Part shown: positions 12,729-37,582 of the stretch, piece after piece
How the letters are laid out: each line of letters begins with the position of its first letter
Position numbering within the stretch: position 1 is the stretch's first letter
NCBI RefSeq assembly: GCF_026210795.1
Contig: NC_089434.1
Span: forward strand, 558,001 to 622,000
Reading direction: 5' to 3'
From: Rhizophagus irregularis
Lineage: Eukaryota > Glomeromycota > Glomeromycetes > Glomerales > Glomeraceae
Length of the DNA: 64,000 nt
Made by a program: the position numbers and the translations under genes
Notes under the pieces: model-generated
The model's database searches: none
The model's input: only the letters and a program-made list of their open reading frames with translations
Told to the model about the DNA's origin: nothing

Positions 12729-12905
12729 TCTTGAAGTGATACAATTAATTATGATAATCAAGTTTTTTCATCTTGTACTTTACCAATTATATAAAAATCT
12801 GTAATGCTTTATTCACATTTATAGATAGTTTGCAGGTGTTTTTTTCTCTACACTCAAAATAATATAAAATCTTTCAATTTTTTTTTATCAAAAAAATTAA
12901 AAAAA

Positions 12906-14095: not shown

Positions 14096-14859
14096 AAATT
14101 ATTTTGCGTATTATACAAATAATAAGAAAATATGTCAAAAATCATTTCCATAAATTATAGAAATTAAATCTTAAAGAAATTAGTAACAGAAAATTTAGTA
14201 TTATTCACAAGGATCCACATTTTTTTGTTAAAAAAATATTTTTTTTCTATAATAATTTGTTTCACTTCTTTTAAAAAAAGAATATACATATATTTTCTTA
14301 TATATAATAAAAACATAAAATTTATGATCTGAAATTATGATATAATGGTTTAATTTTATTAAAAAAAATAAATCTTTTTATAACGAGTGATTTCGTAACT
14401 AATTAATGTACACGTTAACATAATTATTTATGCTACACATAAATCTAATCTAAATTTATCAAAAAATTTTCTTAATACTGCTTAATACAGGTTAGAATTT
14501 TTGCCAATTTACTTTTAATTTATTCATAATTTTAATATTATTTTACAATTTTACAATTGTAATAGCAGGAGATATAATTTGGCCTATCGGTCATATATGT
14601 AATACGTATTACCAATTTAAATATAGGATTTCCGATTTTAATATTGCAACATGTGATCACGTATTACGGTTATTAACAAAGAATTTTTTTATTTTTTCAG
14701 CTGATTATTTTTTTGTCTTTTCGTTTACAAAAACCTAATAAAATAGAAGTAAAATTTTATTTTTTTTCCTTAAATATAAACAAACACATTTAAATTAAAT
14801 AACTCAGAATTTAAATATAAACAAATATTATAGTTTGTTTACACATATTTCAAATTATG
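14096..14859. other. intergenic, no gene seen
   Basis: AT-rich 3' flank of the preceding gene leading into the second satellite block. Nothing specific is visible. Confidence 0.5.
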
Positions 14860-16040
14860 GTTTGAGCATTTTGGCCAAAGTAAATCTTGCTCTTTAATTG
14901 AAAGTAGTTCAGCAAGTTTGAAGCTGTTAAGATATTAATCTACATGAAAGCACAGTTAATATTTTTGGAGTTATTTACATTTTTACATAATAGTACTAAG
15001 TTACAAAATTTTTTTTACCTTCAGAGCGTATTTTGGGCAGTTTAGTCAAAGTAAATCAACTTCTTATATTAATTGAAAGTTTTTTGGCGGGTCAAAATCT
15101 GCTTGGATATTAATTTTCATGAAGGTACAGTTAATACTTGAAGAGTTATTCACGTTTTTCACAATGGAATTTTATTTTTTCTATTTTATCACTTTAGAGC
15201 GTATTTTCGGCACTTTAGTCAAAGTAAATCGACTTCTTATATTAATTGAAAGTTGTTCAGCGAGTAATAATCTGTTCGAATATTGGTTTTCATGAAGGTA
15301 CAGTTAATACTTGAAGAGTTATTCACGTTTTTCACAACGGTACTCATTCACGAATTTTATTTTTTCCATTTTATCACTTCAGAGCGTATTTTGAGCACTT
15401 TAGACAAAGTAAATTGACTTCTTATATTAATTGAATGTTGTTCAGCAGGTGATAATCTACTTGGATATTAATTTTCACGAAGGTACAGTTAATACTTGAA
15501 GAATTATTCACGTTTTTCACAACACGAATTTTATTTTTTCCGTTTTGTCACTTCAGAGCGTATTTTGAGCATTTTAGTCAAAGTAAATTGACTTCTTATA
15601 TTAATTGAAAGTTTTTCAGTGGGTCATAATCTGCTTGGATATTAATTTTCATGAAGGTACAGTTAATACTTGAAGGGTTATTCACGTTTTTCACAACGAT
15701 ACTCATTCACGAATTTTATTTTTTCCGTTTTGTCACTTCAGAGCATATTTTGAGCATTTTAGTCAAAGTAAATTGACTTCTTATATTAATTGAAAGTTTT
15801 TCAGTGGGTCATAATCTGCTTGGATATTAATTTTCATGAAGGTACAGTTAATACTTGAAGGGTTATTCACGTTTTTCACAACGGTACTCATTCATGAATT
15901 TTATTTTTTCTGTTTTGTCACTTCAGAACGTATTTTGAACATTTTGGTCAAAGGAAATCGACTTCTTTTATTAATTAAAAGTTGTTTAGCAGTTAAAATC
16001 CAATTTTCATGAAAATGCAGTGGAGTAATTTATATTTTTT
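14860..16040. repeat. diverged satellite array, block 3 (173-185-bp units)
   Basis: Units start AGAGCGTATTTT at 15023, 15196, 15381, 15555, 15740 and 15925, spacing 173-185 bp, with a decayed copy before. The core (CACTTTAGTCAAAGTAAATC, ATTAATTGAAAGTTGTTCAG, ATTAATTTTCATGA) aligns with the 172-bp units at 5330-9058, so both arrays come from one family. Length variation comes from presence or absence of an ~11-bp GTACTCATTCA segment. Higher-order similarity is visible: the units at 15555 and 15740 are nearly identical. Confidence 0.9.
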
Positions 16041-16312
16041 ATGATCATACTATACTGAATTGCAAATAAATTTACATTCTTTAATGTATTTTTAAAATTT
16101 AAATTTTTATTTAATATTACTTAATAAATAAGGTTGCTTGCCGAAACTAGAGGGTTTCGGCAATACTTTCTATATGATTTAATTAGAGTTTCAGCATTTA
16201 AACAATTTATAAGAATAAAGACAATATGATTTTTTGTATGTAAATATTTATTTTATAATATTTAATATTAAACTAATAAAATATACGATTAAAAATATAA
16301 TAAAAATTAAAA
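16041..16312. other. spacer with a perfect hairpin at 16138-16163
   Basis: TTGCCGAAAC and GTTTCGGCAA form a perfect 10-bp stem around a 6-nt loop (TAGAGG). It lies ~150 bp beyond the stop of the minus-strand SANT gene. It could be a transcript-end structure or a transposon relic; no CTRR follows, so it is not a Helitron end. Confidence 0.6.
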
Positions 16313-16975
16313 TTATCTTCTATGTGGGGACCTGCTTCTACCTCTTCTTCTATCTCTACTTCTGTCCCGTCTTCTATCTCTACCTCTATCTCGTCTTCTA
16401 TCTCTACTTCTTGATCTACTTCTTGATCGAGACCTTGATCGAGACCTAGATCGCGACCTCCTTCTTTCCCTTCGCAATCTATATTCATATCGACGTCGAT
16501 CATGCGCAGCATGCCGCTGTCGATACTCTCGTCTAAACAGATCTAAAATCCAATAAAAATATTAATGAATTGAATGAATTGCCTAAATAAAATTAATTTA
16601 AAATAATAATTAATAATAATTACCGGTTTGTAACCAGAATTCATCGTTCATATCGGCAAAACACGCTCTATCGAAACTATTTGGGCTTGTAATAGGAATG
16701 CCGTCATCATTATTATTTATTATTCTACTGAGGTTTTCATAACCTCGTTTGAGGGCATTCCATTTTGTATAGCACTGCCTGGGTGTCGCTGCAAATCCCG
16801 TTGCAGCGAACACCCTATTTGCTATTATTGTCCATGCATTAACATAGTAGCGGTTTGCAATTCTTTCGAATTGCTGATGTAAGTTTCTTCGCTCCGCAAT
16901 TAACTGCCTAGCAGCATTAATCGTCCATTGGAATACTGGTGGTGGCGGTGGAACAAAAGGTACTAATGCTGCCAT
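16313..16975 (-). CDS. SANT/Myb-like DNA-binding protein with RS-repeat tail
   Basis: Two minus-strand exons, 16975-16624 and 16542-16313, join across an 81-nt GTAATT...TTTTAG intron (codon G|AT), giving 193 residues. Residues ~16-85 form a SANT/trihelix-like helical domain: FQWTINAARQLIAERR, then NRYYVNAWTIIANRVF and the recognition-helix-like ATPRQCYTKWNALKRGYENL. After the splice the frame reads DLFRREYRQRHAAHDRRR, then seven or more RS dipeptides, RDRRRDRGRD and a final GRSRSPHRR. RS tails are typical of splicing factors, so pairing one with a SANT domain is unusual. The acidic frame on the same strand over 16273-16512 is the wrong frame of the RS repeat. Function is inferred as nuclear nucleic-acid binding. 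Confidence 0.75.
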
Positions 16976-18432
16976 TTTTTATTTTTTATGATTTTTTTGT
17001 AACTTGAAAATTAAATACAATTTGAAAATTAAAATACAATTTGGTTTTGAATTGCGAAAAAAAAATTCAAATTTCATAATATTTATAATAATTTTAAAAT
17101 TCGTTATAATGTTTAAAACATGAACTGATGAACATAATAACATTCTACATAATTAAAGTATTTGTAACAAAATAAACACAGTTTTGATTCTAATGTAATA
17201 AATTTAATTAACGCAGTTCTAAATTTTTTTTTGTAATGCAGTTCTTAAAATTTATTGATCTAATGTAATAAATTTAATTAACGAAGTCCTTAAAACTTAT
17301 TGATTCTAATATAATATGCTTATCCTTATTCCTTAATTAAATTGCACTATTTTTAAAATATAATATGCTTATCCTTATTCCTTAATTAAATTGCAATGTT
17401 TTAAAATATAATATAAAATTACAATTGCCTGCATTGCCTGCATAATTATATGTTAACTGGACTTTGATCACGAATATTTTGCCCTGCATAATTACATCAT
17501 TTATTTCCTAAATAGTATCATTATTTAAATCACATGATATTAGAATTAATTCTCATTGGATTAACTATTGTAATTATTTCTCATTATTATTATTCCTCAC
17601 TATCATCATAATTATCGTCATTAACACTTTTATTAATAGAAAATTTAAAAACAAATTTTTATAGTGATAAAAAAATTATTAAAAATACTAAATAAATAAA
17701 AGAATTACAATGATGGAAAAAAAAATGACTGACTGAAAAAGGAATAATATTCATTTAAAAAAAATTTGTAATTACAAAAACTGAAAATAACTGGATAGCT
17801 GCATCAGGACCCCGAACAATACATATAAAGGTCACATTAAAATCAAAATTTTTTACTATGATCAATAAGCAAATGATTTTGGATTCTATCTCGCCAATTA
17901 TAAGTGATCTACCTACTACTAATTTGTGATACTACAGACATCCCTCGCGCTCAAATTTTGTGTTCTTACAAATCTCTCCTTATAAATTCATTTGATAGAT
18001 TTCTATTATTGGGGCTTTAAAAGTTCCTTTCATTATTTTACATAATTTACAATTATAGGTTAAATTATTGAAATCAGTATCTTAATTTTTAAAATTAAAT
18101 AATCCTAATTATTTCTAAAAATAAATTAATGGTCGCGACTTATTAATTTTATTATTTTAACTCCTTAAATTAACTTATCGAGTATTACTATTTTTAGACT
18201 ATTTTCCTTTGTTCTGAAAATAATTTTTCTGATATGATTTTCCTTTTCCAGAATTTTCCCTCATGTAACATTTATCCTTTTATTTGTTTTGCTAATTTTT
18301 ACATGTTTACGCGTCACATCTCTTCATTATATAAGTATCTTCATTTTTCCTTCCTTTCTTGTTTTTACTTAATATTTTTCAAAATTTTCCTTCACTACAC
18401 CTTTACTACACATCTATTTGTTCCTTCTCAAA
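16976..18432. other. intergenic with short local duplications, no gene seen
   Basis: Upstream flank of the SANT gene. Contains a duplicated AATGTAATAAATTTAATTAACG (about 17192 and 17262) and a ~50-bp duplication of the ATAATATGCTTATCCTTATT segment (about 17310 and 17360). The rest is featureless AT-rich DNA. Confidence 0.5.
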
Positions 18433-19362
18433 ATGGTTGCCACTAGGAAATTTACCACCACTTCTGCTTTAATTGCTGCTCGTCCTTCTACTACTGCTGC
18501 TCGTCCTTCTACTGCTGCTCGTCCTTCTACTGCTGCTCGTCCTTCTACTGCTGCTCGTCCTTCTACTGCTGCTCGTCCTTCTACTACTGCTGCTGCATCA
18601 AATAAGAAATGCTGTCGACGTTCTGCCACCTCTAACCGAAAATCTAAAAATCGCTTGAAGGCTTTGAAAGCTGCCAGAAAACCAAAGGTTCAACTTCTTG
18701 AAGGTGGGTATTGTACGCAAGGTTTACTAAATGATCTTAAAAGAGGTTGCCTGCAGACAGTATATTCGTATTCTCAGGGCATGGTTCTTGACGGTTCATT
18801 ACCTGTAGACGGAGTATTCATATTTCCAGTGTCCAGTTCTTAAAAGGATTTTACCTTCTGCAGATCTTTTCTAAACTATCGACTTTATCCACTTAGTTCT
18901 CGAACTAACTATCCAATTATTATCATATACACATATATACATATATTTTTTTTTAATTTAATTCAGAGGAACTTGAAAGTTGTTGTCGTCATCTTAATCA
19001 TATTCAGAAACAACTTAATGAGGCACAAGACTCCCTTCATGACAGTATTAAACTAAGGTCTCAGCTGGAAGATGATCTGACTATTGCACGATCAAAAATA
19101 TTAGACCTTGAAGATGAATTAACGAAGCAGCGAAAAGAACAGAGAATGTTGGGTAAAAAGTATATGGAACTAAAAGGTATATTTCAATATTATATCTTTC
19201 AACTATTATTATATATTATTTCTTTAATTAAAAATTTTATTAGAAGAGAATTATACCATTAAAACTCGTCAACTTCGTTCTCATTCTACTACTCCCGCTA
19301 CTCCTATACCATCACAACTGACTAAAAGTAAATCTAAAAAGAAAGTAAAATTTGCCACTTGA
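18433..19362 (+). CDS. three-exon AARPST-repeat / coiled-coil basic protein
   Basis: Exons 18433-18703, 18967-19176 and 19244-19362 join with codons G|AG and G|AA, giving 199 residues. Residues ~14-50 are a tandem pentapeptide-type repeat of AARPST with alanine spacers. A basic stretch follows (KSKNRLKALKAARKPK). The join then gives QLLEELESCCRHLNHIQKQL and IARSKILDLEDELTKQRKE, a convincing heptad coiled coil, then KKYMELKEENYTIKTRQLR. The end is Ser/Thr/Pro-rich with a KSKSKKKVKFAT terminus. The first donor is a non-consensus GTGGGT; retaining that intron would give a 137-residue product ending at 18843. The composition suggests a nuclear or scaffold protein, possibly dimeric. No known family is recognised. 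Confidence 0.7.
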
Positions 19363-20060
19363 TTTCTGTATTTTGGAAAGGCTTTTATTTCTTCTTTTTT
19401 TAGGTTTATGGATGATTCTTGGACAATTATTCATGGTAGGTTTATTTGTGTGGGTGTTAATGGTGACGTTATTAAACTACATTAACATCCCTTTTTTTAT
19501 TTTTAGATTCCCAGATAATTTTAAACAACATTCTTCATGGTAGATCCTTTGCATGGTGTTTAATGGTGTATTGTTTAATAATATTAATGCCTTTTTTTAT
19601 TTTTTTTAGATTTTTGGATGGTGTCAATAAATTTTTTGGATAATTATGTGATGGTTTTAATGGTAGTACTAACCCCATTATTTACTTTGTTTTCTAGGAT
19701 TTTATTATGGTACGTAGGTTTTTTATTAAATTGGGTGATAATGGTGCCATTAAACAAAACTAATAATGCCTTCTTATTTTTGTAGCGTTTTTTGGATAGG
19801 AAACGCAAATGACATTAGACGCGATGAGATATCAAAGACATCTGAGACGTATTAGAAGTTTTTTGTTGGAATCGAACCAACTGGAAAAATGTTCCAAACC
19901 ATTAACAACATTTATAATTTAGAAAGATAAAATATTAATGTAACACATATAATAAATATCTAGTTTTAAGCAAATAAAATAAATAAATGATGTTTATTAA
20001 TAAATAATAATATACAATACACATAAAAATCAGTAAAATATCGGGATATATCAGGATATA
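19363..20060. repeat. degenerate ~95-bp tandem repeat with splice-like motifs
   Basis: Directly beyond the stop of the coiled-coil gene, about five units recur (near 19400, 19500, 19605, 19695, 19785). Each has a T-rich tract ending in TTTTAG or similar, then a TTTTTGGAT-like core, then often a CATGGTAGGTTT-like donor and GTTTAATGGTG / ATTAAAC / ATTAATGCC. The last part (19800-20060) is unique sequence with no clear gene. Units may be 3' UTR sequence. Confidence 0.5.
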
Positions 20061-20069
20061 TTATCAATG

Positions 20070-20255
20070 AAACATTGTATTTTGATAATATACGGCAATA
20101 ATTGAAAGTGCGAAAATTATTAGTACTCCATAAGTATTGCTCCGATTACTATGAAAATTTACGTGCAGGTAGATTCGACATCGCCGAACAACATTACTTA
20201 AACTTGAAAAGGCGATTACATTTGACTAAAATGCATTCCGAGCGTACCGACGTTA
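20070..20255 (-). repeat. single diverged satellite unit beside Helitron end
   Basis: On the minus strand this reads CATTTTAGTCAAATGTAATC, then GTTGTTCGGCGATGTCGAAT and GTAAATTTTCATAGTAATCG, matching the core order of the satellite in block 3. It lies 36 bp outside the 3' end of the Helitron. Confidence 0.6.
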
Positions 20256-20290
20256 GTAAAAAAATAAAAAAATAAAAAAATAAAGTAATA

Positions 20291-23200
20291 CTAGTTGTAG
20301 CCCGCTGCTTCGCATCGGGTGATTCGATTCGGGTGGTACAAAAATCAATAAATTGAAACAATAAACGTAACTAAAAAAAAATTCGTATACATAGTATACA
20401 CATGACAATGATAATCTTCATACATACACATGACAAAGATAATCAAAGAATGAAAAAAAAAATTCGTTTTAACTTGTACAAATTCATACATGGGCTCACT
20501 TTTTACACAATAAATAATTTATTTCTTTGCAAATTATCGTAAAAGAGAAGAGTAAAAAGTTTATATTACAATATTATGCAAACACATACAAAATTCTAAG
20601 CAAAAACTTCCTTATAAACCACATTCCTTGTCCATCCTTTCTGAGATTTCACACAACCGTTGTCTATAAGAACTTTAATGTTCTGATATGAAGTAATTCT
20701 CGACAAAGCAACATACAGTTGGCCATGAGAAAAAACCGGTTGCGGCAAATAAAGACCAACACGGCTTAAGGTTTGACCCTGAGCTTTGTTAATAGTTAGA
20801 GAAAAAGCCACACGAATGGGAAACTGACGTCAGTTCAGAATAAAAGGCAAGTTGCTGTCAGAAGGGCTTAGTGTCATTCGAGGGATAAAAACACGGCTGC
20901 CAACATGAGAGCCAGAGATAATTTCAGCCTCAATTACTTTGTTCTGAAGAGCTCGACATATCATCCTAGTTCCATTATACAGACCTTGAGAAGGGGCAAG
21001 GTTTCGTAATAGAATAATTGGTGCACCCACCTTCAACTTCAATTCACCAGGAGGAATATCAGGAATTTTTAAGGATCTTAAAAACTCAGGTGAATATACT
21101 TGAGGTTGGGATGTATTGCCATCTTCAGATAAATCTACAGAGTCAGCACTGGGATAGATAGTAAAATCACCAGGTAATCGATCTAACACCAGTTCTGAAA
21201 TTTTTTCAACATCAACATTTTTAGGTGTCAAGATGGCTTTTCCGACCATATAATCCACATTTTCATAATTCTCAATCAAGTGTGGATAAACAAAATCGAT
21301 AAGCGCTGGTAAACCTCCTTTAGTCATCACCAAGTCCAAAGGGAGATTTATACTATCTTCTGTACCAGGAACAATGGAATTATTATCATCTCCAATATCC
21401 AAAAGAAATTTGGCAAATTTCTTTTGCTTTATGGTCTCCTGTGGATCAAGATCTTGACTAAGTCTCATATTAATAGATAATTTCATAACTTTCAAGTGTT
21501 TCCATAAAAAAGAGTGAGTCAAGCATGATGAGACAACATCAGCTCGAAGGGAACGTGGTATGACTGGTAAAACCTGCCTAAAATCACCACCAAATACGAA
21601 AACTTTTCCACCAAAAGGCTTATCAACGCAAGTGATATCACGTAAAGTCCTATCCACAGCTTCAAACGCGAACTTATGTAGCATTGGAGCTTCATCCCAG
21701 ATGAAAAGCTTAGCTGCATTAATTAAACGGGCTTCTCTACTTCCACGGGAAATGTTGCAGGTTGAAAGTTCATCTAATTTTAGAGGAATTCTAAAGCGTG
21801 AATGGGCGGTTCTCCCACCATCAATCAAAAGTGCCGAAATCCCTGAAGAAGCTACAGCCAATGCGATTTCTCCACGGGATCTAACAGTTGCCAGCAACGT
21901 ATTATACAAAAAAGTCTTACCGGTACCACCAGGACCATCAACAAAGAAGCAGTTACACGTATCATTAATAGAAGACAAAACAGCATCATAAATAGCTCGC
22001 TGGTCTTTATTCAGCAAAGGAACATTCTGATTTAATGCACTTTGCAATAGTGTAACATCATATGACATTTCTTCTCGAATCAGTTGATTTAACGCATCAG
22101 GACCATCAAGAAATGCAGATCCTCCCAAAAAAAGAGGCATATCAGGAAAATCTTTTAAAGATTTCGCATTCAACTGCAAGTAAGATTCCAATTGTCTCAA
22201 CGCTTCCTGTTCAACTGCATCATTTACATCACTATAAAGATCACGATTTTGATATAAAATGTCTTCACAAAGAGCAACTTTATGATTATTCCACAGAATT
22301 TCAGGTGCAGCGGGCTGACAAAAGATAAGAATGGTCGCAAAAAGGAGACGTAATTGTTGACCCATTCTCATACAACATGCTTCTCTCAAACAGACATCCC
22401 ATTCGGTATCATCTTGAAGAAGGCCCAAACGAATACAGGCTTCCTTAAAACTTCCACATACATGACCTTCAACTGTCTTCAAGTCATCAAAACTGGAAGC
22501 ACCTCTTACATGAGTAAGCAACATTCGCAAATAATAACGTTTACCTTCTGAAGGTTGCACCATGTACAGTCTCCCAATCGTACTCGTAGCAGTTTTTCGT
22601 ATATTCCACTTATGATTGGTTGAATTCCAAGTATAATAAAGTGGAAAATCAACATATCTGTAATTATGAGCAGCAGGATTCTTAGCATTTTCTTGAAACC
22701 AAGCAACTAAGGTAGTTACATGAGAGTCAGCATGATCTAAAACTTGCTGCAATTTATCATCATCACGGAAAGTAATAAGCTGCTTCTCAGGAAGATGAAT
22801 CGCCAACCTTTGAACACTTGGAGAACGGCCATGCATCCTGTAATGAAAAATTCTCCAAATTGCCTCCGAAGACGAAATGTATCTCGTGTCAAGATACATC
22901 TTTATCTCATCAACGGGTTCTTTAACAGGTGATCGCAGTTCGCTAGCACTGTCAGGTCGTGAAAGCGCAACAGTAGCTCGATCGTGACCTTTGTATACGT
23001 ATTTATATAGGTATTTAATAGCTAAAACTGAATTACAGATTTCAACGTTGATATGGGCGTCATATTTTTCTACCAATTCAACATTGTGAGGAACCACCCA
23101 TCGGTTATCTAAACGGATGCCACGCCTAACTTCAACAAAAGAACCATTATCACGCCTACGGTAAAGAGGATATCCGTCACAATTGTCCTGTGTGGAGGAT

Positions 23201-25645
23201 TGAAAAGATTTCGGATAATGCTTCTGGCAGAAACCATCCTTCATACACGGAGCCGAAGGATTAAGCACACCACACAGACCATGCATCATAGACAATATAA
23301 CGGTCTCGTAAGCAAGAGGGTGAACATTAGGATCAGGGATTTCTGCAGAAACAATTGCATCATAATCTTCCGCAGAATGAAGCTTTGAATCTTGCGAAAG
23401 AATTAGGAGAATATGAGCATGCGGTAAGCCGCGTTTCTGAAATTCGATTACGTAAACAAACGCGGCAACTTTACCGAGGCAGTGTTTTTCACATAAATCC
23501 TTTAACAATTCTCGTAGTTTCATATGAAAAACACGTGCCGTCAAGTCAGGTCTATCCACGGCAGTTTGATGTGGCAACAATTCTCTTGTAACCTCTTGCC
23601 ACTTGGGATTACATGTGAAGGTGACAAAAAGGTCAGGCTTTCCAAAGTGACTCACGATGGCCATAGCATCTTGATAGAGTTGGTACATCTGACGCGGACC
23701 ACCAATAAACGTTGAAGGAAGAATTATCCGACGTCCAATATTCTGTCCAATGTCTCCAGCATCTCTATCATCAGCATCTCTGTCATCAGCATGTATGGCA
23801 TCAGCAATTCCTTTATACAAATCCAAGCGAAGGGATGATTGATTAAATCTGAGATAATTCAAACGATGCTGTTCTATCTTTGAATACTGGTCTACAACAT
23901 ACTGCTGATACAAACGGCCAGCACGTTGCAAGCAATTACCGGGTCTAATCTGTAACCTATAAGAATAGAATTGCATAGGAGTCACCGTATCTCTTTGAGT
24001 ATTTATTCGAGTGTTATCTGCAAGCAGTATATCAAGATGCCATCCATCATCACCGTTTGGGAACAGCAGCACGTATTGAAGAGGATCATAGGAAGGATGC
24101 AATTCGGATATTCTTTGTAAAGTCCCATCACGGAGGTTAAGAACAATATCTCGATTAGAAGGTTCAACTTCATAACCATCACCAACTATGATCGCAGCAA
24201 CATCAGAAGCAGCAGGAGCATTATAGCGGCGGGCATCATTAGAACGATCACAAAAAATTCGCATCGAAATTTCAGCTGAATCAGCATCATTTTGAAGCAA
24301 ATCTCTTACTTGACGAAAATTCTGGATATAAGGGTTAGAAGTATCCAACATATTCTGCAAATTCTGCAACATTTCGGCATTCAGATCACGCATAACATGA
24401 AGGCGATTGCTATTTTCATGATCGGTGTCATAGATATAGAGCTGAACAAATACCGGTTTCTGTCCTTCATCCGGCATCAAAGATCCTACGCGATGATAAA
24501 TTTGCCCATGGATTTTAAAATTCGAGACACCTTGACCTTGAAAGCTTTCGTCAATATTAGCACCAAAAGAGGTGCATGCCAAAATTCCGTTATAAGCTCT
24601 GATGTTTTTACGAAAACTTATTGCTTCGGAACAGGAGGAAGTATATAAATCAAGTAGATAAGGAGGAGGATCAAGCACAGGAGCTAAACGGACCTTGCCA
24701 CCCGCACAACACATAGCAAACCTAGGAGAAGATAGGCTGCTGTTCCGATCCTTCTCACACAACCAAAATCTCACGCCACAGTGTAAACACGTTTGATCGA
24801 TGATTCCCAGATCAAGACGCCCTCCATCAAATCTCCTTTGTCGGTGACGTTCAACTCTCTCTTTTTGCAGTCTTCTTTTACGTGATACAGGAGTCTCGCT
24901 TGTAGAAGGCATATTGGAGCAGTTAAAGAAAGATTAGCGTCAAGGACAAAAGATAAGACGACATCGTGCAAATTGGGCAGCAACGCGCATAAATTAGCAT
25001 ATGAACACGCGAAGAAAAAGGAAATCAGGGTATCAGCACAACGGCATGGGGGAAGAATACAACAAAACGAAGGATTAGATAATTAAAGCAATATTTTTTT
25101 TCGGATTACATTGGAAAAAGTATTTTTTTCAAACAACTTTATTATAATCAAATTAAAATTTATTTAAAAAATCATCTTTTTTAAACAACTCTATTATAAT
25201 AAGATTTGAAAAACATTAAAATAATCATTAACTACAAAACCGGTAAATCAACAATTTATACAATGTTATACACTTATAAATAAGAAATAATTAATTTATC
25301 AATGTTATTACTTAAAATATGTTTAAGGAACAGATAACGTTAACTACTCTTCTAGAAATAAAAAAAAATAAAATAAAATAAAAAATTACTTTTAAAATGT
25401 TTATTTTTTACAAAAGGAACGTTTATTTTTTACAAAAGCAATGCGAATTAATACAAAATGAATATACATACAAACAAAACTCAACTAATCAGGTTTATTA
25501 AAAAAAAGACGCGAAAGTAGTTAAAAAACGTGACCAAAAGCGCGATGACGAAACAAAGAAAATGGCGTCAACAAAGGGGGTAACACAACTGTATAATTAT
25601 TTATACAGGTAATCTAAACGTTACAAATTTTTTTAATTATATAGA
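20291..25645 (-). mobile_element. complete Helitron, 5355 bp
   Basis: Minus-strand element. The 5' end is TCTATATAATTAAAAA at 25645, preceded by A. The 3' end has the hairpin CCCG-ATGCGAAGCAG-CGGG, then CTACAA and CTAG ending at 20291, followed by T. TC start, hairpin, CTAG end and A^T insertion site are all canonical. It contains one long Rep/helicase gene (20596-24912), a ~730-bp 5' leader and a ~300-bp 3' tail. Both ends intact and a single internal stop indicate a recent insertion. Such elements move by rolling-circle or peel-and-paste replication. Confidence 0.88.
20596..24912 (-). pseudogene. Helitron Rep/Pif1-type helicase, one in-frame stop
   Basis: One frame runs from ATG 24912 to the stop at 20596, interrupted only by TGA at 20832-20830, after residue 1360 of about 1438. 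Layout: an N-terminal Cys cluster (CLHCGVRFWLC, ~42-52) and a Helitron-like N domain (FVTFTCNPKWQEV, ~429-441). The HUH motif is HAH at 498-500 and the two-tyrosine motif is KYLYKYVYKGHDR at ~633-645. The Pif1/RecD-like helicase has Walker A GPGGTGKT at 993-1000, Walker B FIWDEAP at ~1070, and GGDFRQVLPVIP at ~1108. Beyond the stop the frame continues with [20 protein letters not shown] and ends in [11 protein letters not shown], the last helicase motifs. Without readthrough the product lacks motif VI. TGA sits where CGA would fit (arginine), a single C-to-T change. Confidence 0.9.
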
Positions 25646-26904
25646 TTATTGTGAAAAATACAATTTTTTTTATGAGTATGATGTCTAATTTTATGAGAAT
25701 TAGATGTAATAAGTTCAATAATGTATTTGAAAACAAATTATCAGTTTAAAAATTTATTTTATAAAAATTTTTGAACGTGTGAAATTTAATTTTATTTTTT
25801 ATATATAAAAAATTACTCCTGTTACGCAAATCTATATATGACTATTCATTTCTAATTTATTTGCTACGCAAATACAAATATGACGTTATGGAAATTTTAC
25901 CCCTAAATACGCAAAATTCTATATGACTTAATAAAAAATTTTATATGATGAATAAGCAAATTTTTTTGTTACCGTTCATTCCAAAAGGATGGGAATAGAA
26001 AAATTATTATTAATACAACTGAGTTTTTTTGTAAAAAAAGTGATTAAAATTTCATTAACTGGAAAAATTATATTAGCAATAAAGAATTGTGTACATATGA
26101 ACATATGACCTGACCGCTAATCAAATAACATGGACAGATCATGTTACATAATTCAAATTATTTATACAGACAGTATGACAGAATATTTCTCGGTTTACAC
26201 AATTTTTTAAAAAGCTATCAATCGGCCGGTAAGTTGTACAACCGATACCAAAACTGCATATATATATAGTAAATAAATAATATTAAATTAATATTAATAA
26301 TAAATAAATATTGCACATAATTATAATTTATTTATTAAATATATTAAATAATTCACTCAGTTTATACAATTATCGATCAGCCAGTAAGTTATATGGCCAA
26401 TACCAAAACTGTGGTTTTTAATATATATATATAGTTAATAAATAATATTAATTATTTATCAATATATTAAATAATTTTAGATATAACAGCTAAGTCATAT
26501 ATATAGCGAATAATAATTGCATTAATTACATGATAAATAAAATGAATAATCACGTATTTTACATTATTTTTAGGAAAAAACTGGTAATTAATTACCAGAA
26601 TTACAAATAAGAAAAATAAGATAATAAAATCCATGTATTACATAACACATATGATCTTCGGGAATCGGATATTTTGGCAGGTTTCGGCCTATCTTAAGAT
26701 TCGGCCTAATTTTGAAGTTTCAGTCAAAATTACAAATTTCAGCCAAAATTTTGGATTTCTGGAATTTTATTGGTTAAACCCTTTCACAATTTAAAAATAG
26801 GGTTTTAGTAAAAGACCCTTTATTTTGGTATATTAACACTGAAATGTAATTAAAATTCTTACATTAATAAATACATTTTTAATTTTTTCATATAATATAA
26901 AACT
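25646..26904. other. intergenic with a diverged local duplication
   Basis: A ~75-bp segment (ATCGGCCGGTAAGTTGTACA-type, then CCAAAACTG and ATATATATAGT) occurs at about 26218-26290 and again, diverged, at about 26368-26450. A run of TTTCGGCCTA / TTTCAGTCAAAATT / TTTCAGCCAAAATT repeats is at 26660-26760. It may include the undefined 5' end of the element carrying the next gene. No gene seen. Confidence 0.45.
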
Positions 26905-27399
26905 ATGAGTTTTACTGTTAATCATTGGAGAGTTGAAGTATCAGATAATGATTCTGAATCTTATTTGAACTCAGAACATGAAAATTTTGATAGTTCATTA
27001 TTTTCAAGTTATGCAGTTCGTCAACAAGCTAATGCAGATCATTCTCGAATTCCAATTCAACCATCTTTGTTTTCTGCAAACATCACCTTTAGAGCTTATT
27101 TTCCATCCTGGCAACCTTCTATAAAATTGTGTAACTTACAAGATCGGTTTAATACAACTATTATTCTTACTCAATATCCATGTGTTCCATGTAGTTATTG
27201 TTCTCGTTTACAGTATCCAACAAAGGCAAAGTGGGAACTATATGATAGAACATTTAAATATCCTTTAGAAGAAGCTTATTCAAATAATCCACAAATCACA
27301 TTAGTTTTTCATACTGATGATTCTCAACCTGCACGTATAGCAACATGTTCTTCTTGTTATAATTCTAATAATCATCTTAAAATACCAATTCCTGATTAA
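26905..27399 (+). pseudogene. N-terminal piece of Helitron-type Rep/helicase, cut by hAT insertion
   Basis: 164 codons from ATG 26905, stopping at TAA 27397-27399, which is the first three bases of the hAT terminal repeat. The frame ends at KIPIPD on the 8-bp target duplication. Removing the hAT element and one duplication would join it in phase with the frame that resumes at 33577 (PIPDEIQSV), making a protein of about 1368 residues. This piece carries an acidic N-terminus and paired Cys motifs (CVPCSYC and CSSC), probably a zinc site as found at the start of many Helitron proteins. It lacks any catalytic motif. Confidence 0.85.
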
Positions 27400-28086
27400 A
27401 GCTCTCCATAAGCCAAGCCGGCTTGAAGGCTTATAAGCCGGCTTGCATCAAGCTGGCTTGAATCTCACTTATAAGCCATCAAGCCGGCTTATTTCAAGCC
27501 AAGCCAAGCCGTGGCTTATTCAAGCCGGCTTGCAAGCTTTTTTTTTTTTTATAATTTATGTAATTTATATGAAATATATTAAATTATTTATTAAAAAAAT
27601 TTATAAAATAAAAATTTTCAATAACCAAATTACGTAGTATTCATAAAGATCGGTATCAGTCATATGACTTGCCGAATCAATTTACCGATCGGTTGATAAT
27701 CTATTTTTTATTTAAAACAACCGAATTCCTATAAAAATTTTTATGTAAAAACTCCGTAAAAATAATCCTTTCACGGATCCATTCACGGAAAATGAAAACA
27801 ATTCGATAAATTCCATGATATAAGGTTATTAATTCCGGAAATATGAGCCTTCTACGGAAAAAGGATGGAATATAAAAAAACGGATCAACTTTTTTTACCG
27901 GAAATAGCTAAAAAAAGTTGGAACTCTACATAAACTAAACACCGGAGTGCTGTAAGTATGAGAGTTCGTGGTTATTTTTTTATTTTTGGAACGATTACTA
28001 ACGTTCCTTTTCATTTTTTACTTTAGGAACGGTTCTTAGACGTCTGGAACTCTGGAATGGCAAGTCGAGGGGAGAATGGGGTATTG

Positions 28087-28553
28087 TTAAAACGTAAGAG
28101 ACAATTCCTTCCCCGATTTTGAAGAAAAAGAATAACGCCGAGTTTCATAAAAGAGAACGACTAGATTTGCATTGTGAGGAATACCCCAAAACCCGGAACC
28201 TTTCGTATTCCCCTTTCCCTTTCGTATTCCCCTTTCCCTTTCGTATTCCCTTTCCCTTTCGTATTCCCCTTTCCCTTTCGAATTCCCCTTTCCCTTTCGT
28301 ATTCCCCTTTCCCTTTCGTATTCCCCTTTCCCTTTCGAATTCCCCTTTCCCTTTCGTATTCCCCTTTCCCTTTCGTATTCCCCTTTCCCTTTCGTATTCC
28401 CCTTTCCCTTTCGTATTCCCCTTTCCCTTTCGTATTCCCCTTTTCCTTTTAACGGTTCAAATGTATTATTTCCGACGCTATTATTTGTTGCCATACCTGG
28501 AGCAGCGTAGGGATCTATTGTTGGTTGATTTTGTGGATCGTTCGTGTTTGATG
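28087..28553 (-). pseudogene. possible captured gene fragment overrun by minisatellite
   Basis: A minus-strand frame from ATG near 28553 begins MTSNTNDPQNQPTIDPYAAP and GMATNNSVGNNTFEPLK, a credible protein-like composition, then runs into a 19-bp minisatellite read as GKGEYERERGIRKGKGNTKG-type repeats to a stop at 28087. A possible upstream exon (MDQHCYFERPLSNFEDGGTS ending at a GTAAGT donor, 28782-28723) joins to an acceptor at ~28561, but in that join the protein-like frame is not kept, so it is not asserted. Best read as host or transposon coding sequence degraded by repeat expansion. Confidence 0.35.
28199..28450. repeat. 19-bp minisatellite, about 14 copies, strand-asymmetric
   Basis: Unit CGTATTCCCCTTTCCCTTT, with CGAATTCCCC variants in two copies and one 18-bp unit. 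The minus strand has repeated GGGAAAGGGG runs, giving G-quadruplex potential; the plus strand is pyrimidine-rich. Because 19 is not divisible by 3, all frames stay open and yield long artificial ORFs on both strands. Confidence 0.95.
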
Positions 28554-30041
28554 TCATGTACCTAGAACCGAAAGAATTGAGAGAAAAATTTAAAACGGTA
28601 TTTCCGGAGGATCTGAAGATTCTGTGAGAAAGGTTTTTGATGTTTAAATAATTGGAGTATTTTTTTGTGAAGAAGCATATCAACAAAATAATTTCTATGG
28701 AGGGTGAGGGTGTTGAACTTACCGACGTTCCTCCATCTTCGAAGTTCGAAAGAGGACGTTCAAAGTAGCAATGTTGGTCCATTTTCGGAAGAGGACTTTT
28801 AAACTATTAATGTTGGTATTTCTTCAAAAAGTAGACAGTTTATTATATAAGATGGGGAACGTTAACACGTTCATCAGTTTGGTGTTGATAAAATTTGAGG
28901 AGCAGCAAACGAACCCGTTGGAAAATAAAGTATTTGTTGTTTTTCTATAACCCATAATACTTTCAGAACGTTACTAACGTTCCTTTTCGTTTTTTACTTT
29001 AGGGAACGGTTCCTGGACTTGAATTTTGGTCTGGAACTCTGAAATGAGAAGTTGAGACTTGAGACGGGTTAAAACTCCGGAAAATAAGGTATTTGTAGTT
29101 ATGACAATAATATCTTTACATTTTGGAGGCGCTTGTAGATACGAACCACTAATGGAATGGTAGTGGTCGGCATTTTTTCTATTATGGGAACGTTAGTAAA
29201 CGTTACTGACGTTCCTTTATTTGGTTTTTTTTTAATAGGAACAATCCTGGAAGTTAAATATATCACCCTCAAGGTCTATATAAATATGTTTTATGGGGAA
29301 GTTGGCACTCACAATAGCATCTCCCCTTCTTATTCCTGCACGTTGTAGAGGTTGGCAAGCTTTGAGAATAGATGAAAAATGGTTGAAACTCATTTTCTTA
29401 AATCAATCAATTTGCCAATAAATTTGTCTAATTGATTTGTGAATATATTACATTAAGAATTGCCAAATTGTGTTAAAGTACCAAGATTCACACCATCCAT
29501 GAGTGGAGTTATTTTGAGCTCTTCTAATTCAATATATACTTGAATAATAGTAAGGTGTGGAATGCTGAATTTTTGCATATAAAAAGAGTGCATGAATATT
29601 ACCCAACTTTTTCATTACTAGTTAAATTAGCTGGATAGAAGAAGAGATACAAATGCCAAATCATTGTGGATGGATTTATCAATTATGGAATAATCTAAGA
29701 TACAGGAATTGGGATTTAACAAAGTTTGATATCCAACAATCACTCTATTTACTTTTATATTTTTCGTCCTATTGGTCTAATAATAATGTATGGTCATATG
29801 ATTTATACGTACTATACTTTATGCATGCATATTAAAAATTTAAATAAATGTTTGATAAGAAGATTGCTATTTTCAGTATTTTGGTTACAATTACGAATCA
29901 TTATACAGATTTATGCATTAATATTGTTCTTTTTTTTAAAAACGTTTCAAAATTATTTATAAAAAAAAAAAAATTATTTTGTTGGGTTTATTCACTTTAT
30001 TGTATTAATAATTTGTTTTTTTGTTTTTATAAAATTATAAA

Positions 30042-32618
30042 ATGTCATCAGATTCTTCTAATAATACGAACAATGATAGTATCATTAACATTGGTAAAGA
30101 AGATGAAAGTTCTGTTAAAAAAAGAGTATCCCCCGTTTATCAATATTTTACATTTAATGATGAACTAAGTCGCTGGTATTGTGACTATTGTGCGTAAGTA
30201 TATATTTTCATGTTTTAATATTTATTTTCATGCTTTAATATTATAAATTTACAATCTAAAATTAATTGTATTGTTTGAATAATAGGAAGGATTTTGGAGA
30301 TAATACCTCAAATCTTTGGAGACATATTAAAAAAATCCATAGCGAAATTCTTGGTGAATCTGAAAAAACAAATAGTAATAATAATGAAAAAGTTAGTTTA
30401 ATATTTTAATTTTCAATACAAATATTATGCAATAAGCAGTATTAATTAGAACATTTACTTGTTTATTTTTTTAAGCCTACACAGCATGGTTTTCGAAAAA
30501 AATTACTCCAATGGGTAGTACGAGATGACCAACCATTTATCACAATCGAATGTCAGGAATTTAAAAATATGGTAAAATATTTGTGGCCTAGTGTTAATGT
30601 ACCATCAGCAAATACATTAAGAAGAGATTTAAGTGCAAATTTTGAGCAAGTAAAAGATAAAGTTCGCCTGGAATTACAAGTTAGTATTTAGTAATCACAT
30701 AAATAATAATTATATAATTATTAAATATTAATAATAATATAATTTAAAAATAGGAAACTCCTGGTTTGCTTTCTTTTACAGTAGATGCTTGGACAAGTAA
30801 AAACCAACTACCATTTCTTGGTATATCTGTTCATTGGATTAACAAAAAGTGGGAACTACAAAGTTTAACTTTAGATTTTTGCCTTTTATCGGGACAGCAT
30901 TCCGGAGAAAACCTTGCTCAACAATTTTTGAAGGTTTTGGAAGATTTTAATATAGAAACAAAAGTATGTAATTATATTGGTTTAGAAATTTTAATTTTTT
31001 TTTTAATATTTTTTTTTGATTTTAGCTTTTAGCTATAGGGTGTGACAATGCGTCAAATATGGATGTTATGCTAAATAAAATATCTAGTTCTTTACGTAGT
31101 AAAAATATTTTGTTTAATCCAAACAATCAACGTGTAAGATGTTTCGCACACATCATTAACTTAGCGGCAAAAAAAGCTGTTGAAAATCTTTATATATCTG
31201 ATTTGAATGATGATGATAATTTAGATATTGGAGAAACTACTAATGAATTAATGAGTGTTATTTATAAAGTAATTTATTAATTATAAATATACTATATAAC
31301 TTAAGTTTTAATACTAAAATTTATTCTTTTTATTATATTAATATTTAATATTAGCTTCGAAAATTAGTAGTAAGGATACGTGCATCTCCACAAAGAAGAG
31401 AACGTTTTCAACAGCAATGTGTTGCTATTGAACTTCCAGAGCTTGAATTACTGCCAGATATCAAGACACGTTGGAATTCTACAGAAATTATGATTGAACG
31501 AGCTTTAAAACTTCGACAAGCACTTCATAATTTCACTTCGGCTGATAGAGATTTAAAACATTACTTATTTTCAGATAATGAATGGAAGCTTATTGAAGAA
31601 ATTCATTTACTAATGCAGGTTTGTAAATTATAATTATTGTTTTTTAAAAAAAATAATTATTTATTAATATTTTATGAATTTTATTTTATATAGTATTTTA
31701 AAATATGTTCAGATTATATTACTGGTCAATTATATCCTACTCTTGCCTTTACCATCCCAGCATATAATTATCTATTAGATAAAATCGAAGATATTATTGA
31801 TAATAATAATATAAGAATTGAAATTAAGAATGCGGCAACTGCCGCAAAAAAAAAATTGAAGAATATTATCCTACTACTGGTGGACATATATATATAATTG
31901 CTACAGGTTAGTTGAATTACAAAAAGTGTATTTTATAATTTTTATAAATTTATATTTATTATTTATTATTCATAATTATTAAATAGCAATGGATCCACGA
32001 TTAAAATTACAATATTATGATGACAATGATTGGGAGGCTGAATATATTTTAGAAGCTAAAAAAATTGTTACAGATATATGGAATAATTTTTATAAAAATA
32101 ATATAGATATTAGCCAATCTTCAGATAATTTAGAAGACGATCTTCTTTCACATATTTTCAAAAAACGAAAAACTGAACGGGATGATGAATTAAAATCTTA
32201 TTTTAGAGAACCAACTATATCTAAATCAACAGATGTACTTGCATGGTGGAAGGTAAATTTTATTGTAAAATTTAATTATAATAATATATATTATTAAATA
32301 TAAACTTATTTTTTATTAATTTTTTTAATAGGTACAAGAAGCTAATTATCCAAATCTTTCTAAAATGGCTTTAGATTATTTAGCTATTCCAGGTTAATAT
32401 TTAAATAACATTATTATAATAATATTTTTAATTATTTAATAATATATTTTTATTGTTTTTTAGCGACAAGTGCTCCTGTAGAACGTATTTTTTCAAGTGG
32501 TACCGATTTAGTTACACAAAAAAGATGTAGTTTAAAAGGTGAAACTATTAGAGAATTAATGTGTTTAAAAAGTTGGTGGAAATTAGGCTTCAATGAACCT
32601 ATAATTATCAAAGATTAA
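30042..32618 (+). pseudogene. hAT transposase, 10 exons, one A-run frameshift
   Basis: Exons 30042-30193, 30286-30391, 30476-30679, 30754-30963, 31026-31268, 31355-31618, 31694-31906, 31987-32252, 32332-32392 and 32464-32618, all GT-AG with matching phases, except that exon 7 has a run of 10 A at 31846-31855 where 8 or 11 would keep the frame. With that allowance the product is ~624 residues. BED zinc finger: C47, C50, H64, H69. Catalytic-core motifs: VDAWTS (D165), GCDNASNMDVM (D231), RCFAHIINLA and DIKTRWNST. The C-terminal dimerisation domain reads ATSAPVERIFSSGTDLVTQK with LKSWWKLGF at the end. As written the frame stops soon after the A run. The homopolymer makes a sequencing or assembly error possible, so the gene could be functional. 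Confidence 0.9.
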
Positions 32619-33555
32619 TTTTTTAAATTATTTTTTTTAAAAAAATCAATTTATGTATAAAACTTATATAAATATATATATAATAAAAAGAAATTATTTA
32701 TCAGAATTTTTATAATTATATAAAAATAAAAAATTAATTAATTTGTTTAATAACTTATAAAATATAAATATAATTTATATTTTATTAAGGGTTTAAATCT
32801 TATATACAAGTATATTGCAATATCCTATCCTTTATAATATTTTATATAAAAGTCAAAAACACTATTTTAATTGGCTATTAAGTAAAATTGTAAAATAAGC
32901 AAAAATATATATAATATATATCTTTTAAAAGTTCTATAATATGTATATAGAGAAAATTACCAAAAAAAAAGGATGTGTTACTACATAATTGCATAAAATG
33001 TTTTTATTAAAATTAATTTTAAAGTATTCTTTTAAATTTAAAAAAGAAAATATTAAAATAATATTTTTTTTTATTTAATGATTATAAAAAAATAAAATTA
33101 CTACTGTTAAATTCATTTCAATAAGATATATTAAATGGTAGTAATTTACCCTTTTATAATTACTTAATAGTAAAAAATTTAATTTGTAGTTTTTTCTAGA
33201 ATTTTATAATTTTTGAGCAAAATTCATAATGCCGGCCAGAATTACAATATCACGTAATTTCGGAATTCGGGTAAATAGTTTAGCCACCAGAAAATTAATG
33301 TTACACAAGAAAAAAACACATTTCAATACGCACAAAATCCGTGTAACATAAATTTCCTTATTAGGAAATTATATTTACGAAATTTGTGTAACATAAATTT
33401 CCTTATTAGGAAATTTAATAATTCCGGCCGGCATTATAAATTAGACAAGCCGGATTATTAAGCCGGCTTGTTAAGCCAAGCCGGCTGGATTAATCAAGCC
33501 GGCTTGAAAAAATTTAATAAGCCAAGCCGGCTTGTAAATTAATCCAAGCCGGCTT

Positions 33556-36500
33556 ATGGAGAGCTTTATTCCTGATCCTATACCTGATGAAATTCAAAGT
33601 GTGCCTTTATATCATCGAATTTATCTCTCACCTATTCATCTTAGTTGTTCATTAGGCCGAGTTCCAAATAGCAATGCTTACACAAACTATCGTCACTTAA
33701 CTGGAACCTTTAACTACTCAAAAAATATTAATGCACTTGCATTATATTCTGGTACCATTGGTGCTATACTAAATAATAATCAATCAAATTCATGGTATCA
33801 TTCTTCACTTGATAATGCAGCAAGATGGTTACGAGATCATAATCCTTATTTTAAACCATATCAAACTTTAATTAATCGTGGAACATGGGATGGGGCACCA
33901 ATTATCTTTCCAAATGCCTCACTTAGTAATACTTCTCAAAATCAAGACCAACCATTATTTAACATTAATTCACGTCCTTCTGCTGTAATACTACCTCCCT
34001 ATGAACTTGATGCAGAAATTCATAATGAAGATTACCATTATAATCGATTAATGGCAGGATTTTTAACTGATCCATATAATAAAAAATTACCAATATCTTT
34101 TTATGATAAAAATATTGAACCACTTTTATTTCCTGACCTTTTTCCATATGGAAAAGGATTTTATATAAATGATGAAAATACAAATCGGCGATTTACAGAT
34201 AGTTTAGGTAATTATGCAAAATCTTTACTACTTTGTCCTGATCCCAGATGGAGATTATCTTGGTATTGGCCTCATTATATTTATTTAACAATTGAAAAAT
34301 TAAGAAATCACCAAAATAGAAATCGAATTTTAAATCAATATAATACTTCACTATCACATCAATTAACAACAGCAGATTTAATTACCAATAGTATTTATAC
34401 TGGACGTCCAATAATTAATGAAAAAAATACAACAACTATACCTTCTTATATTAGAACAGGAGATTCTTATTTTCGCCAAAAAGAACATCATATTAATACT
34501 ATGGTTCAAGGATTTGGTTTACCACAAATTTTTTATACTATGACTATGGCTGAAAATCATTGGTCACATTTAAAAAATATTTTATTAAAAACTGATAACA
34601 AAGATCCCCTTCCTTCTAATCGTCCATTTCATACCTACTTGCATTATCATCATCGTTTAGCATCAATGCATCAATATCTTTGGAAAAATCCAAATTTAAC
34701 TGATTGGGGTAACTGGTTACATCATTTTGAACGTGATGAATTTCAAAATCGTGGAGCAATTCATACACATGGTATAGCTTATTTATCTAAATCAATTTCT
34801 GAATTAATTGATTCTAATGTAATTAGAGCAGATATGCCAGATCCCAATTCTGAACCAGAATTATATGAATTGGTTAAAAAACATCAAATTCATACTTGTG
34901 ATTCACGTTGTGGAGGTCCAGCTCCATCTGGTTCACGTTGCAAAAAAGGTTTTCCTCAACCATATTCAGATACTACACATGAAGATCCTAATTCCTTAAG
35001 ATATATTTATCGTCGTACTAAAGAAGAAGATTTATATGTTATTCCATATCATGCACCAACATTATTTTTATGGAATGGTCATATTAATTTTCAATATGTA
35101 ACAACACATCAATTTGCAAAATATATGACTAAGTATGTTACAAAATCTGAACCATCAGAATATTTTGATATTTCTGAACCTGATGCATTTCGAAAACATA
35201 TTTTAGCAAGACGTCTTGGATCAATGGAATTAATGATTCTTTTACTTGGATATTCAATATGTCGATCATCAATTGCTGTTGAATTTCTTCCTTCTATTCC
35301 TCCTGAAATAAGAACTAAATCTATAAAACCACTTTATTTATTACAACAAGAAGAACAATTATCTCCCTATTGGGATGATGCCATTGATAAATATTTTGAT
35401 CGTCCATCTGATAATGAATTTGATAGTATGACATATCCTTTTTATCATCGCAATTATACTATACAAAAAAGTCAGCCAAAAAATGGAATATATTATATAG
35501 ATAAAAAAAACCGCTTTGTAAGAAAAAGACAAAAAGAAATTCTTGTACGTTTTCAACATTTAACAATTCAGCAATCAGAATCATTTTATTATCAACAATT
35601 ACTACTTAGATTACCTGTTAGAAGTGAAACTGATTTAAAAAGCTTATATCAAACTTATAAAGCTCATTTTGAAGCTAAATATCCTACTGAATATTCATTA
35701 ACTTTAAATTTTGTACAAAATTCAATGCAATCTAATATTCAAAGATATACAAATAATTATCAAAATTTAGTTAATAATTTGATATCTTCATTGCATGTAA
35801 ACTTACAAGAAATTATTGGAAATCAGTTAAATAATTTGTTACGTCAACCTATTCGCTCTTTAAATCTCTCATCTATGCTACTTTCTGAAGATCAATACAA
35901 AATAATGAATATACTTACAAATAGTTGGGGAGAAAGATTACATTCTAAACATCCTTATTTTTTTCTAACTGGTTCAGCAGGTACTGGTAAATCTTTTATG
36001 ATACATCTAATTAAAAATTTTTTAGCTGATAAAAAAACTGAATATTTATTGATGGCTCCTACTGGTGTTGCTGCACAAAATGTAAATGGAAAAACTATAC
36101 ATTCAGCATTATATATTAGAAATACTCAAACCTATTTTGAAACATTATCTCATTATAATAATCAACAATTTGAAAAACTTAGCCAGATTAAAGCTATTAT
36201 AATTGAAGAAGTATCAATGGTATCATCAATTCTTTTATCTTTTATTAGTTCATTATTTGCAAAAATTAACAAATCACCAGTAACTTTTGGTGGAATTCCA
36301 ACTTTACTAATTGGAGATATTGCTCAACTTCCACCTGTAAGTGGTAAACAAGTTTTTTATGCTCCAGAATGGCAAGAATTTTTCCCACTTTTTCTTACAA
36401 CTTCTCATCGCCAACAAGATAGATCATTTTATAATATATTAGAAGAAATGCGAATAGGAAATATAAGTTCAGAAACAAGAAGATTAATTGATGAAAAAGT

Positions 36501-37191
36501 GCAATCATATCAAAGTAACAATGAAATGTCAACTGATACTACCTATATTTTTGGATTTCATCATAGTGCAGATTCAATTAATAATTTAATCTGTGGTTAT
36601 CTTCCTATTTTTAAAGATATCTCCTCTGGATTTTTAATTTCTACAGCTATTGATTATGTTAATGAAAAAGAATGTATACCAAAAGAATATGATAAACAAT
36701 TTAGACATTATACTAATTTACCATCTGAATTAATAATAAGAGAAGGAGCAAGAGTAATGTTTCTAACTAACAAATTATTTAATGAACAACTTTGTAATGG
36801 ATCAATTGGTGTGGTAACTAAATTAATAAATGAAAATCAAGTAGAAGTGGCATTTCCAATAAATAATGGGATAAATCAAGTTATAGTAGAAAAAATTACA
36901 ACTTATTTTAACTTACATGGAGCTTCAGCACAACGAACACAATTTCCACTTCAAAATGCATTTGCTCTAACTGTACACAAGACACAAGGCCTTACATTAC
37001 CCCATGTAACTGTATCATTGGATGAACAAATGTTTGCTCATGGGCAATCTTATGTAGCAATAAGTCGTGCCACATCTTGGGAAAATCTAGAAATCCAATC
37101 TTTTGATCCAAATGCAATAAAAGTAGATGATGCAATGTTGTCAGAATTAAATAGATTACAGGAGAAATTCAATACAATGTATTTATCATAA
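33556..37191 (+). CDS. Helitron-type Rep/Pif1 helicase, C-terminal 1211 codons with transposon-derived start
   Basis: The frame starts at an ATG lying inside the hAT terminal repeat (MESFIPDP; native sequence resumes at codon 8). Residues ~190-350 hold the Helitron-like N domain ([32 protein letters not shown]). The HUH motif is HTH at 403-405 ([12 protein letters not shown]). The two-tyrosine motif is [11 protein letters not shown] (Y523, Y527). The helicase part has Walker A GSAGTGKS at 806-813, IIIEEVSM at ~881, [14 protein letters not shown] at ~917-930, and near the end [20 protein letters not shown] with [14 protein letters not shown]. All catalytic motifs survive the hAT insertion; only the N-terminal ~164 residues are cut off. 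Sequence differs strongly from the Helitron at 20291 (GSAGTGKS against GPGGTGKT), so it is another lineage. The ends of the host element were not found. Confidence 0.88.
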
Positions 37192-37582
37192 TAGCATCCA
37201 ATCTAATTTTTTTAAATCACTATACTTAACATTATCATCATATCTAATATTTTACTAAAATTAATACAAACTATTATATTTATATTTATCTTTATATTAT
37301 TATCACTTAACATGTTACAGGATCAATTCATTTTGATCATTAAATATAATATTTCTTTAATAAAACTAATAAACTCAAAATAAACCATAAAATTTATTAT
37401 TTGATAAAAATACAAAATACAAATCAACTTTTTAATATAAACCCTATTATATTACTTAAAATATATATAAATAATTACTGAATAATGCAATAATTATATT
37501 ATAACTCACTAACAATACCAAATTACCCTAGTTTATAATAATAATATAACTTTTAAGTTAATAATTTATGCATAAAAATTAT
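37192..37582. other. intergenic, 3' flank of Helitron-type gene
   Basis: AT-rich, no gene. No hairpin with a CTRR end could be identified for the element carrying the helicase. Confidence 0.5.

Follow-up and report, generated by a model that had tools for sequence, protein, structure and literature searches.

A Helitron with a non-canonical 5' end in Rhizophagus irregularis, entered by a canonical Helitron and by a hAT element

The DNA analysed here is a 64-kb stretch of the Rhizophagus irregularis genome (contig NC_089434.1, C6:558001-622000; hereafter the window), taken from an assembly of 146.7 Mb in 32 contigs. An initial annotation of this stretch had described a hAT element splitting a Helitron-type replication gene at 26905-37191. 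These coordinates hold; the element that carries the gene was found to extend from about 11481 to 37532 and to contain a second insert, which the earlier work had not connected with it. We consider it almost certain that a Helitron (the host element) was copied into this site and was then hit by a canonical Helitron (insert 1) and by a hAT element (insert 2). The features are collected in Table 1. Empty sites prove that Helitrons and a hAT element moved in this genome within a short period, and the analysis defines the ends and the genes of a large, many-copy Helitron family. Nested insertion of transposons is common, and the case is clear but fairly ordinary.

The limits of the hAT element were read directly. 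Its ends are TAAAGCTCTCCATAAGCC and the exact reverse complement of that sequence, and TTCCTGAT occurs twice around the element but once at the empty sites. When the window was screened for perfect 18-bp inverted pairs lying 1-12 kb apart, 17 pairs were obtained, and an 8-bp direct repeat was present outside only one of them, the hAT pair. The duplicated octamer is compatible with the hAT target consensus nTnnnnAn. A transposase gene model, drawn by eye and with a script, gave a product that matched zf-BED (PF02892, E 3.2e-08), DBD_Tnp_Hermes (E 9.3e-05) and Dimer_Tnp_hAT (PF05699, E 2.5e-24). Compared with a hAT copy on contig C3, exon 7 of the model (31694-31906) shifts phase at a homopolymer run, which is either a mutation or a sequencing error. 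The subterminal motif AAGCCGGCTTG was found six times in the window, always near one of the two hAT ends. The assignment of insert 2 to the hAT superfamily is supported both by its structure (the 8-bp duplication, the short perfect terminal inverted repeats (TIRs) and the subterminal motifs) and by the three protein domains. It differs from that superfamily in being large for its gene (6.17 kb, with about 2.6 kb of 5' DNA ahead of the transposase gene) and in the phase shift of exon 7.

Sites lacking the inserts were searched for by pattern matching across the genome with up to 3 mismatches, copies beyond that divergence being outside the limit of the search. The right-hand flank of the hAT site was found at nine places, including the window. 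At the other eight the site was empty, with one TTCCTGAT each (7 exact, and 1 with 3/40 mismatches). The empty site of insert 1 was found at six places genome-wide, all exact. No filled site outside the window appeared among the matches of either search. Three copies of the host element, A (C6:1464601 onwards), B (C6:1402900 onwards) and C (C14:1835800 onwards), were compared with the window base by base; the remaining copies are known from pattern or protein matches. All three have an empty site for insert 1, a single TTCCTGAT at the hAT site and an open RepHel frame of 1,367 codons. Judged from these copies, both inserts arrived after the window copy had parted from the lineage of A, B and C. 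The hAT element, with its 8-bp duplication and 18-bp TIR, had been proposed in the initial annotation and is borne out by the direct reading, by the uniqueness of the pair in the window and by the eight empty sites; the relative date, that is, that the hAT element postdates this Helitron copy, also stands.

The hAT element interrupts the host RepHel. With the insert and one TTCCTGAT left out, the two halves are in the same phase and add up to 164 + 1204 = 1,368 codons, in agreement with the single frame of ~1368 codons predicted earlier and one codon more than the open frames of A, B and C. Codon 164 of the window gene is codon 163 in the intact copies, the window 5' half having a 3-base in-frame difference. 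The insert opens with TAA, which stops the frame directly after codon 164. The split had been described as codon-precise. Its positions are correct, but they mark no special feature: any insertion that duplicates its target site leaves halves that match in phase when the insert and one duplicate are removed, and the duplicated stretch will end at a codon boundary in one case out of three.

The product of the 3' part matched Helitron_like_N (PF14214, E 1.6e-16) and PIF1 (PF05970, E 9.4e-26). Two stretches could be aligned with Helraiser, one in Rep (50 bits) and one in the helicase (83 bits), the latter scoring below the match of the helicase to cellular PIF1 (134 bits). An HxH motif near 34760 and a Y-x3-Y motif near 35120 are both kept in copy A and in all five relatives that were fetched. 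Together with the defined ends and many copies of the element, these results confirm that the gene is of the Helitron type. For the 5' part no Pfam family scored above chance (best E 0.16).

The five relatives show 45-52% identity. Four of them (C23, C9, C24 and C5) span the hAT junction, which agrees with the joined frame, and the frame of the fifth (C10:329665) starts past it. The N-terminal part lost from the window gene contains a CxxC...CxxC pattern that is kept in the four junction-spanning relatives, two of which (C5 and C9) are nearly identical to each other. This conservation suggests that the lost part holds a needed domain, and, since the pattern is lost with it, RepHel function is likely to have been lost in the window copy. 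The claim that one transposon has disabled another is correct for the full-length RepHel frame, which is broken; it does not extend to the mobility of the element in trans.

Substitutions private to one copy were counted over 7,229 aligned columns (stretches 18700-20230, 25650-27388 and 33577-37533), W denoting the window copy of the host element. There were 10 in W, 0 in A, 2 in B and 18 in C, and W and A differed at 16 sites (~0.2%). The 5' half of the W RepHel has one private substitution. With 10 private substitutions against 18, the interrupted copy shows no more decay than the open copy C over the counted stretches. Both inserts look young.

It might be supposed that the RepHel gene was already dead and that the hAT element struck a relic. 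The window protein does differ from that of copy A by four amino-acid changes and one extra codon. The protein of copy C, however, whose frame is open, differs from that of A by five amino-acid changes, and the window halves have no stop or frameshift of their own apart from the insert. We regard a relic as unlikely.

Alternatively, the insertion might have created an N-terminally shortened RepHel instead of silencing the gene. The ATG at 33556, within the right TIR, is in phase with the 1,204 codons carrying Helitron_like_N and PIF1, and one of the five relatives (C10:329665) also has a frame without the N-terminal part, although upstream exons may belong to it. Such a protein would nevertheless be without the 163 codons that hold the conserved CxxC...CxxC pattern, and there is no second 26-kb copy among the 31 paired copies of the family described below; a shortened RepHel seems to us quite improbable. 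That unrelated repeats were misjoined in the assembly is hardly credible, for although all three elements are repeats and hence prone to misjoins, the 8-bp duplication and the TIRs are base-exact, insert 1 has an exact A^T junction, and the sister copies have exact empty sites.

Some points weigh against the reading that the host element was copied in and its gene then silenced by a young insertion. The 1,211-codon frame that starts in the hAT end could be active. In the 5' stretch 11479-20276, 36 mismatches separate W from A in 8,822 columns (~0.4%), which is above the level of the counted stretches. Copies A and B are almost identical, so that changes common to both are private to neither. 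The host family could also look younger than it is through gene conversion among its copies. Finally, the dating is relative and comes from a single assembly, and the site may be polymorphic between nuclei or strains.

On the reading of nested insertions, the host Helitron, 14.5 kb long and non-canonical at its 5' end, was copied to the window site, most likely by rolling-circle transposition. Later, and in either order, two elements entered this copy: a canonical Helitron landed in an A^T target 5' of RepHel, and the hAT element landed, presumably by cut-and-paste, in RepHel itself. The hAT insertion duplicated 8 bp at codons 161-163 (as numbered in the intact copies), and its first TAA placed a stop at the junction, with probable loss of RepHel function. 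Since both of its ends remain, the host element could in principle still be moved in trans by protein from intact copies.

The nearest copy of the hAT element, on contig C3, differs from it by 0.5%, 1.3% and 3.7% in three blocks (16/3,124 mismatches; 25 mismatches in 1,897 columns by BLAST, for window positions 28274-30168; and 27/729 mismatches). From these values the hAT lineage is probably older than the window Helitron copy, the lowest block (0.5%) being close to the Helitron figure. A copy on contig C15 is about 92-97% identical to the window hAT element, depending on the block. A direct donor was not found: judged by eye, the 8-bp flanks of the C3 copy do not match, and the C15 copy is cut off by telomere repeats. 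The latter copy (L021, C15:1-8800) runs straight into TTAGGG repeats near position 750, at the start of the contig, as would be expected had telomere addition within the transposon repaired a broken chromosome end. In the C3 copy, exon 1 of the transposase gene holds an insert of ~5.3 kb (about C3:5888866-5894174; L020/L025), whose inverted ends, beginning CACTGGTC, and TAA duplication point to a further nested DNA transposon.

The 5' DNA of the window hAT element contains a tandem array of the 19-bp unit CCTTTCGTATTCCCCTTTC, in 13 copies (28199-28449). A piece of ~160 bp (27740-27901) is a frequent repeat of the genome and covers most of the 47 matches listed. It is also present in the C3 hAT copy, and a 600-base query that held it gave 816 first-look candidates.

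Insert 1 lies 5' of the host RepHel gene in the orientation opposite to the host, and the two inserts do not touch. It carries the features of a canonical Helitron, namely TC...CTRR ends, a 3' hairpin, an A^T target and RepHel. Its RepHel matched PF14214 (E 3.9e-63) and PF05970 (E 1.5e-78), and was aligned with residues 36-1359 of Helraiser (7lcc, E 1.5e-295), scoring 987 bits against Helraiser and 52 bits against PIF1. Relative to a copy on contig C31 (41 mismatches in 3,093 aligned columns), it has an early stop where the C31 copy continues.

The limits of the host element were set by comparison with the sister copies. A, B and C have 11479-20276, 25645-27396 and 33569-37532 in common with the window (in B, starting only at 16233), and the outer flanks differ. 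On the left, sharing with A and C stops at 11479/11480; on the right, sharing with all three stops at 37532. In the window its paired end motifs span 26,053 bp, which makes the host element 26.05 kb long, both inserts included; in copy A it measures 14,516 bp.

The ends of the host family were searched for across the genome as patterns (up to 3 mismatches) and paired by nearness on the same strand, at a distance of 30 kb or less; most paired copies were not read through. The search gave 80 5' ends, 79 of which read TTAAAAC, and 34 3' ends, 31 of which have a same-strand 5' end within that distance. The paired ends are 3.5-5.2 kb apart in 21 cases, 8.6 kb in one, 13.1-15.6 kb in seven, 18.7 kb in one, and 26.05 kb in the window. 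The family looks like a few long and many short copies. In the sole short copy that was read (L074), both ends are kept and the RepHel region is absent, and for this reason movement in trans has probably already happened in the family.

The base before TTAAAAC in 23 paired copies is T in 11, A in 7 and G in 5, and the base after CCCTAGT is T in 24/24 3' ends. In the 23 paired copies the flanks share 0-6 bp; the shared length is at least 4 bp in 3/23, compared with 1.3 expected from shuffled partners. When the outer T is assigned to the target, the counts become 1 and 0 of 23. As these lengths vary and are near the shuffled expectation, the host element is without a target-site duplication of fixed length. 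The outermost T on each side may belong to the target.

A second gene with two predicted exons lies in the 5' region of the host element. The first of its open reading frames (ORFs) has no Pfam match and the second only a weak one to WWE (E 0.096, which fails the cutoff); against the PDB, one non-significant match was obtained (E 0.32). The gene has eight diverged matches of 32-57% identity. For three of these (C16, C12 and C4:2708542; 52-57% identical) a RepHel match is found no more than about 5 kb away; the remaining five are not near the RepHel matches listed, which are the best candidates. Since three of its eight diverged relatives adjoin RepHel matches, the second gene is probably a gene of the element and not a fresh capture. 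Repeats offset by ~175-185 bp occur within the host element at 14861-16000 and appear as shifted BLAST rows between copies.

Table 1. Positions of the features within the 64-kb window
Feature	Position	Strand	Basis
Host element (Helitron, 5' end non-canonical), ends TTAAAAC...CCCTAGT	about 11481-37532	+	homology with sister copies ends here
Second gene of host element, exon 1	12906-13127	+	by-eye reading
Second gene, GT-AG intron	13128-13336	+	inferred by eye
Second gene of host element, exon 2	13337-14095	+	diverged relatives
ORF with Myb/SANT-like domain inside host element	16613-16978	-	PF13837, E 2e-08
Insert 1, canonical Helitron, 5,355 bp, 5'-TC...CTAG-3', 3' hairpin, A^T target	20291-25645	-	empty sites, ends
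RepHel ORF of insert 1	20833-24912	-	domains, Helraiser match
5' part of host RepHel, 164 codons, Cys-rich motif, includes left TTCCTGAT	26905-27396	+	direct reading
Left target-site duplication TTCCTGAT	27389-27396	+	read directly
Insert 2, hAT element, 6,172 bp	27397-33568	+	TIRs, duplication, empty sites
18-bp TIRs of hAT element	27397-27414 and 33551-33568		18/18 bp match
hAT transposase gene, 10 exons, GT-AG introns	30042-32618	+	predicted model
ATG-opened frame, 7 + 1,204 codons, in phase with RepHel 3' part	33556-37191	+	ATG within right hAT TIR
Right target-site duplication TTCCTGAT	33569-33576	+	read directly
3' part of host RepHel, 1,204 codons + stop, Rep and PIF1-type helicase	33577-37191	+	domains, motifs

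As judged by its domains, its motifs and the alignment with Helraiser in both parts, the host element is a Helitron. It resembles canonical Helitrons (Helitron1; Helraiser) in the Rep-PIF1 architecture, in the Helraiser alignment of Rep and helicase, and in the CTAG at the 3' end. This CTAG is followed by TT, so that CTAG may be the end itself; no hairpin is predicted in the last 50 nucleotides. Unlike canonical Helitrons, the host element has no 5' TC, no fixed A ahead of it and no A^T target, and its helicase is closer by score to cellular PIF1 than to Helraiser.

Non-canonical Helitrons are treated in PMC5148889. There, Helentrons and Helitron2 are described as inserting at T^T sites and as marked by an asymmetric terminal inverted repeat of 12-16 bp, and one FoHeli group of Fusarium oxysporum as ending in CTCCTGT. 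The host element is similar to the elements of that account (Helitron2, Helentrons and FoHeli) in the lack of a TC start, in a short hairpin predicted at its 5' end and in the high identity of its copies, and its CCCTAGT may be set beside the CTCCTGT of the FoHeli group. The invariant T on either side fits the T^T target given there, although that T may instead belong to the element. It differs from the groups as described there in having no 12-16-bp asymmetric inverted repeat and in having a second gene.

When the first 40 nucleotides of the host element were compared with the last 150, the best ungapped inverted match was 9/10 bp, a score equalled or beaten in 451/500 shuffles, and was rejected. 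A 7-bp match, ATTATTG/CAATAAT, is present ~40 bp from the 3' end. The 1,204-codon part matched 18 Pfam families, none of which is a Helentron-type endonuclease domain. The host element is non-canonical at its 5' end; it is not assigned to Helitron2/Helentron, because the asymmetric repeat was not found and the constant T may belong to the element.

The available portions of three Rhizophagus papers (PMC11075540, PMC8647823 and PMC9226531) mention Helitrons as a class only. No description of the ends of this family was found in the accessible part of the Rhizophagus, Glomeromycotina and Helitron literature searched, subscription papers and Repbase being outside reach. We hold it possible, with doubt slightly outweighing belief, that the host element represents a distinct, recently active Helitron lineage, marked by its 14.5-kb length, its TTAAAAC...CCCTAGT ends with an invariant T on either side, the lack both of the canonical 5' end with its A^T target and of the Helitron2 asymmetric repeat, a helicase that leans towards PIF1, and a second, two-exon gene found near RepHel in some diverged relatives. 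If this is true, the nested copy would offer a natural way to learn if a 26-kb form whose gene is broken still moves in trans.

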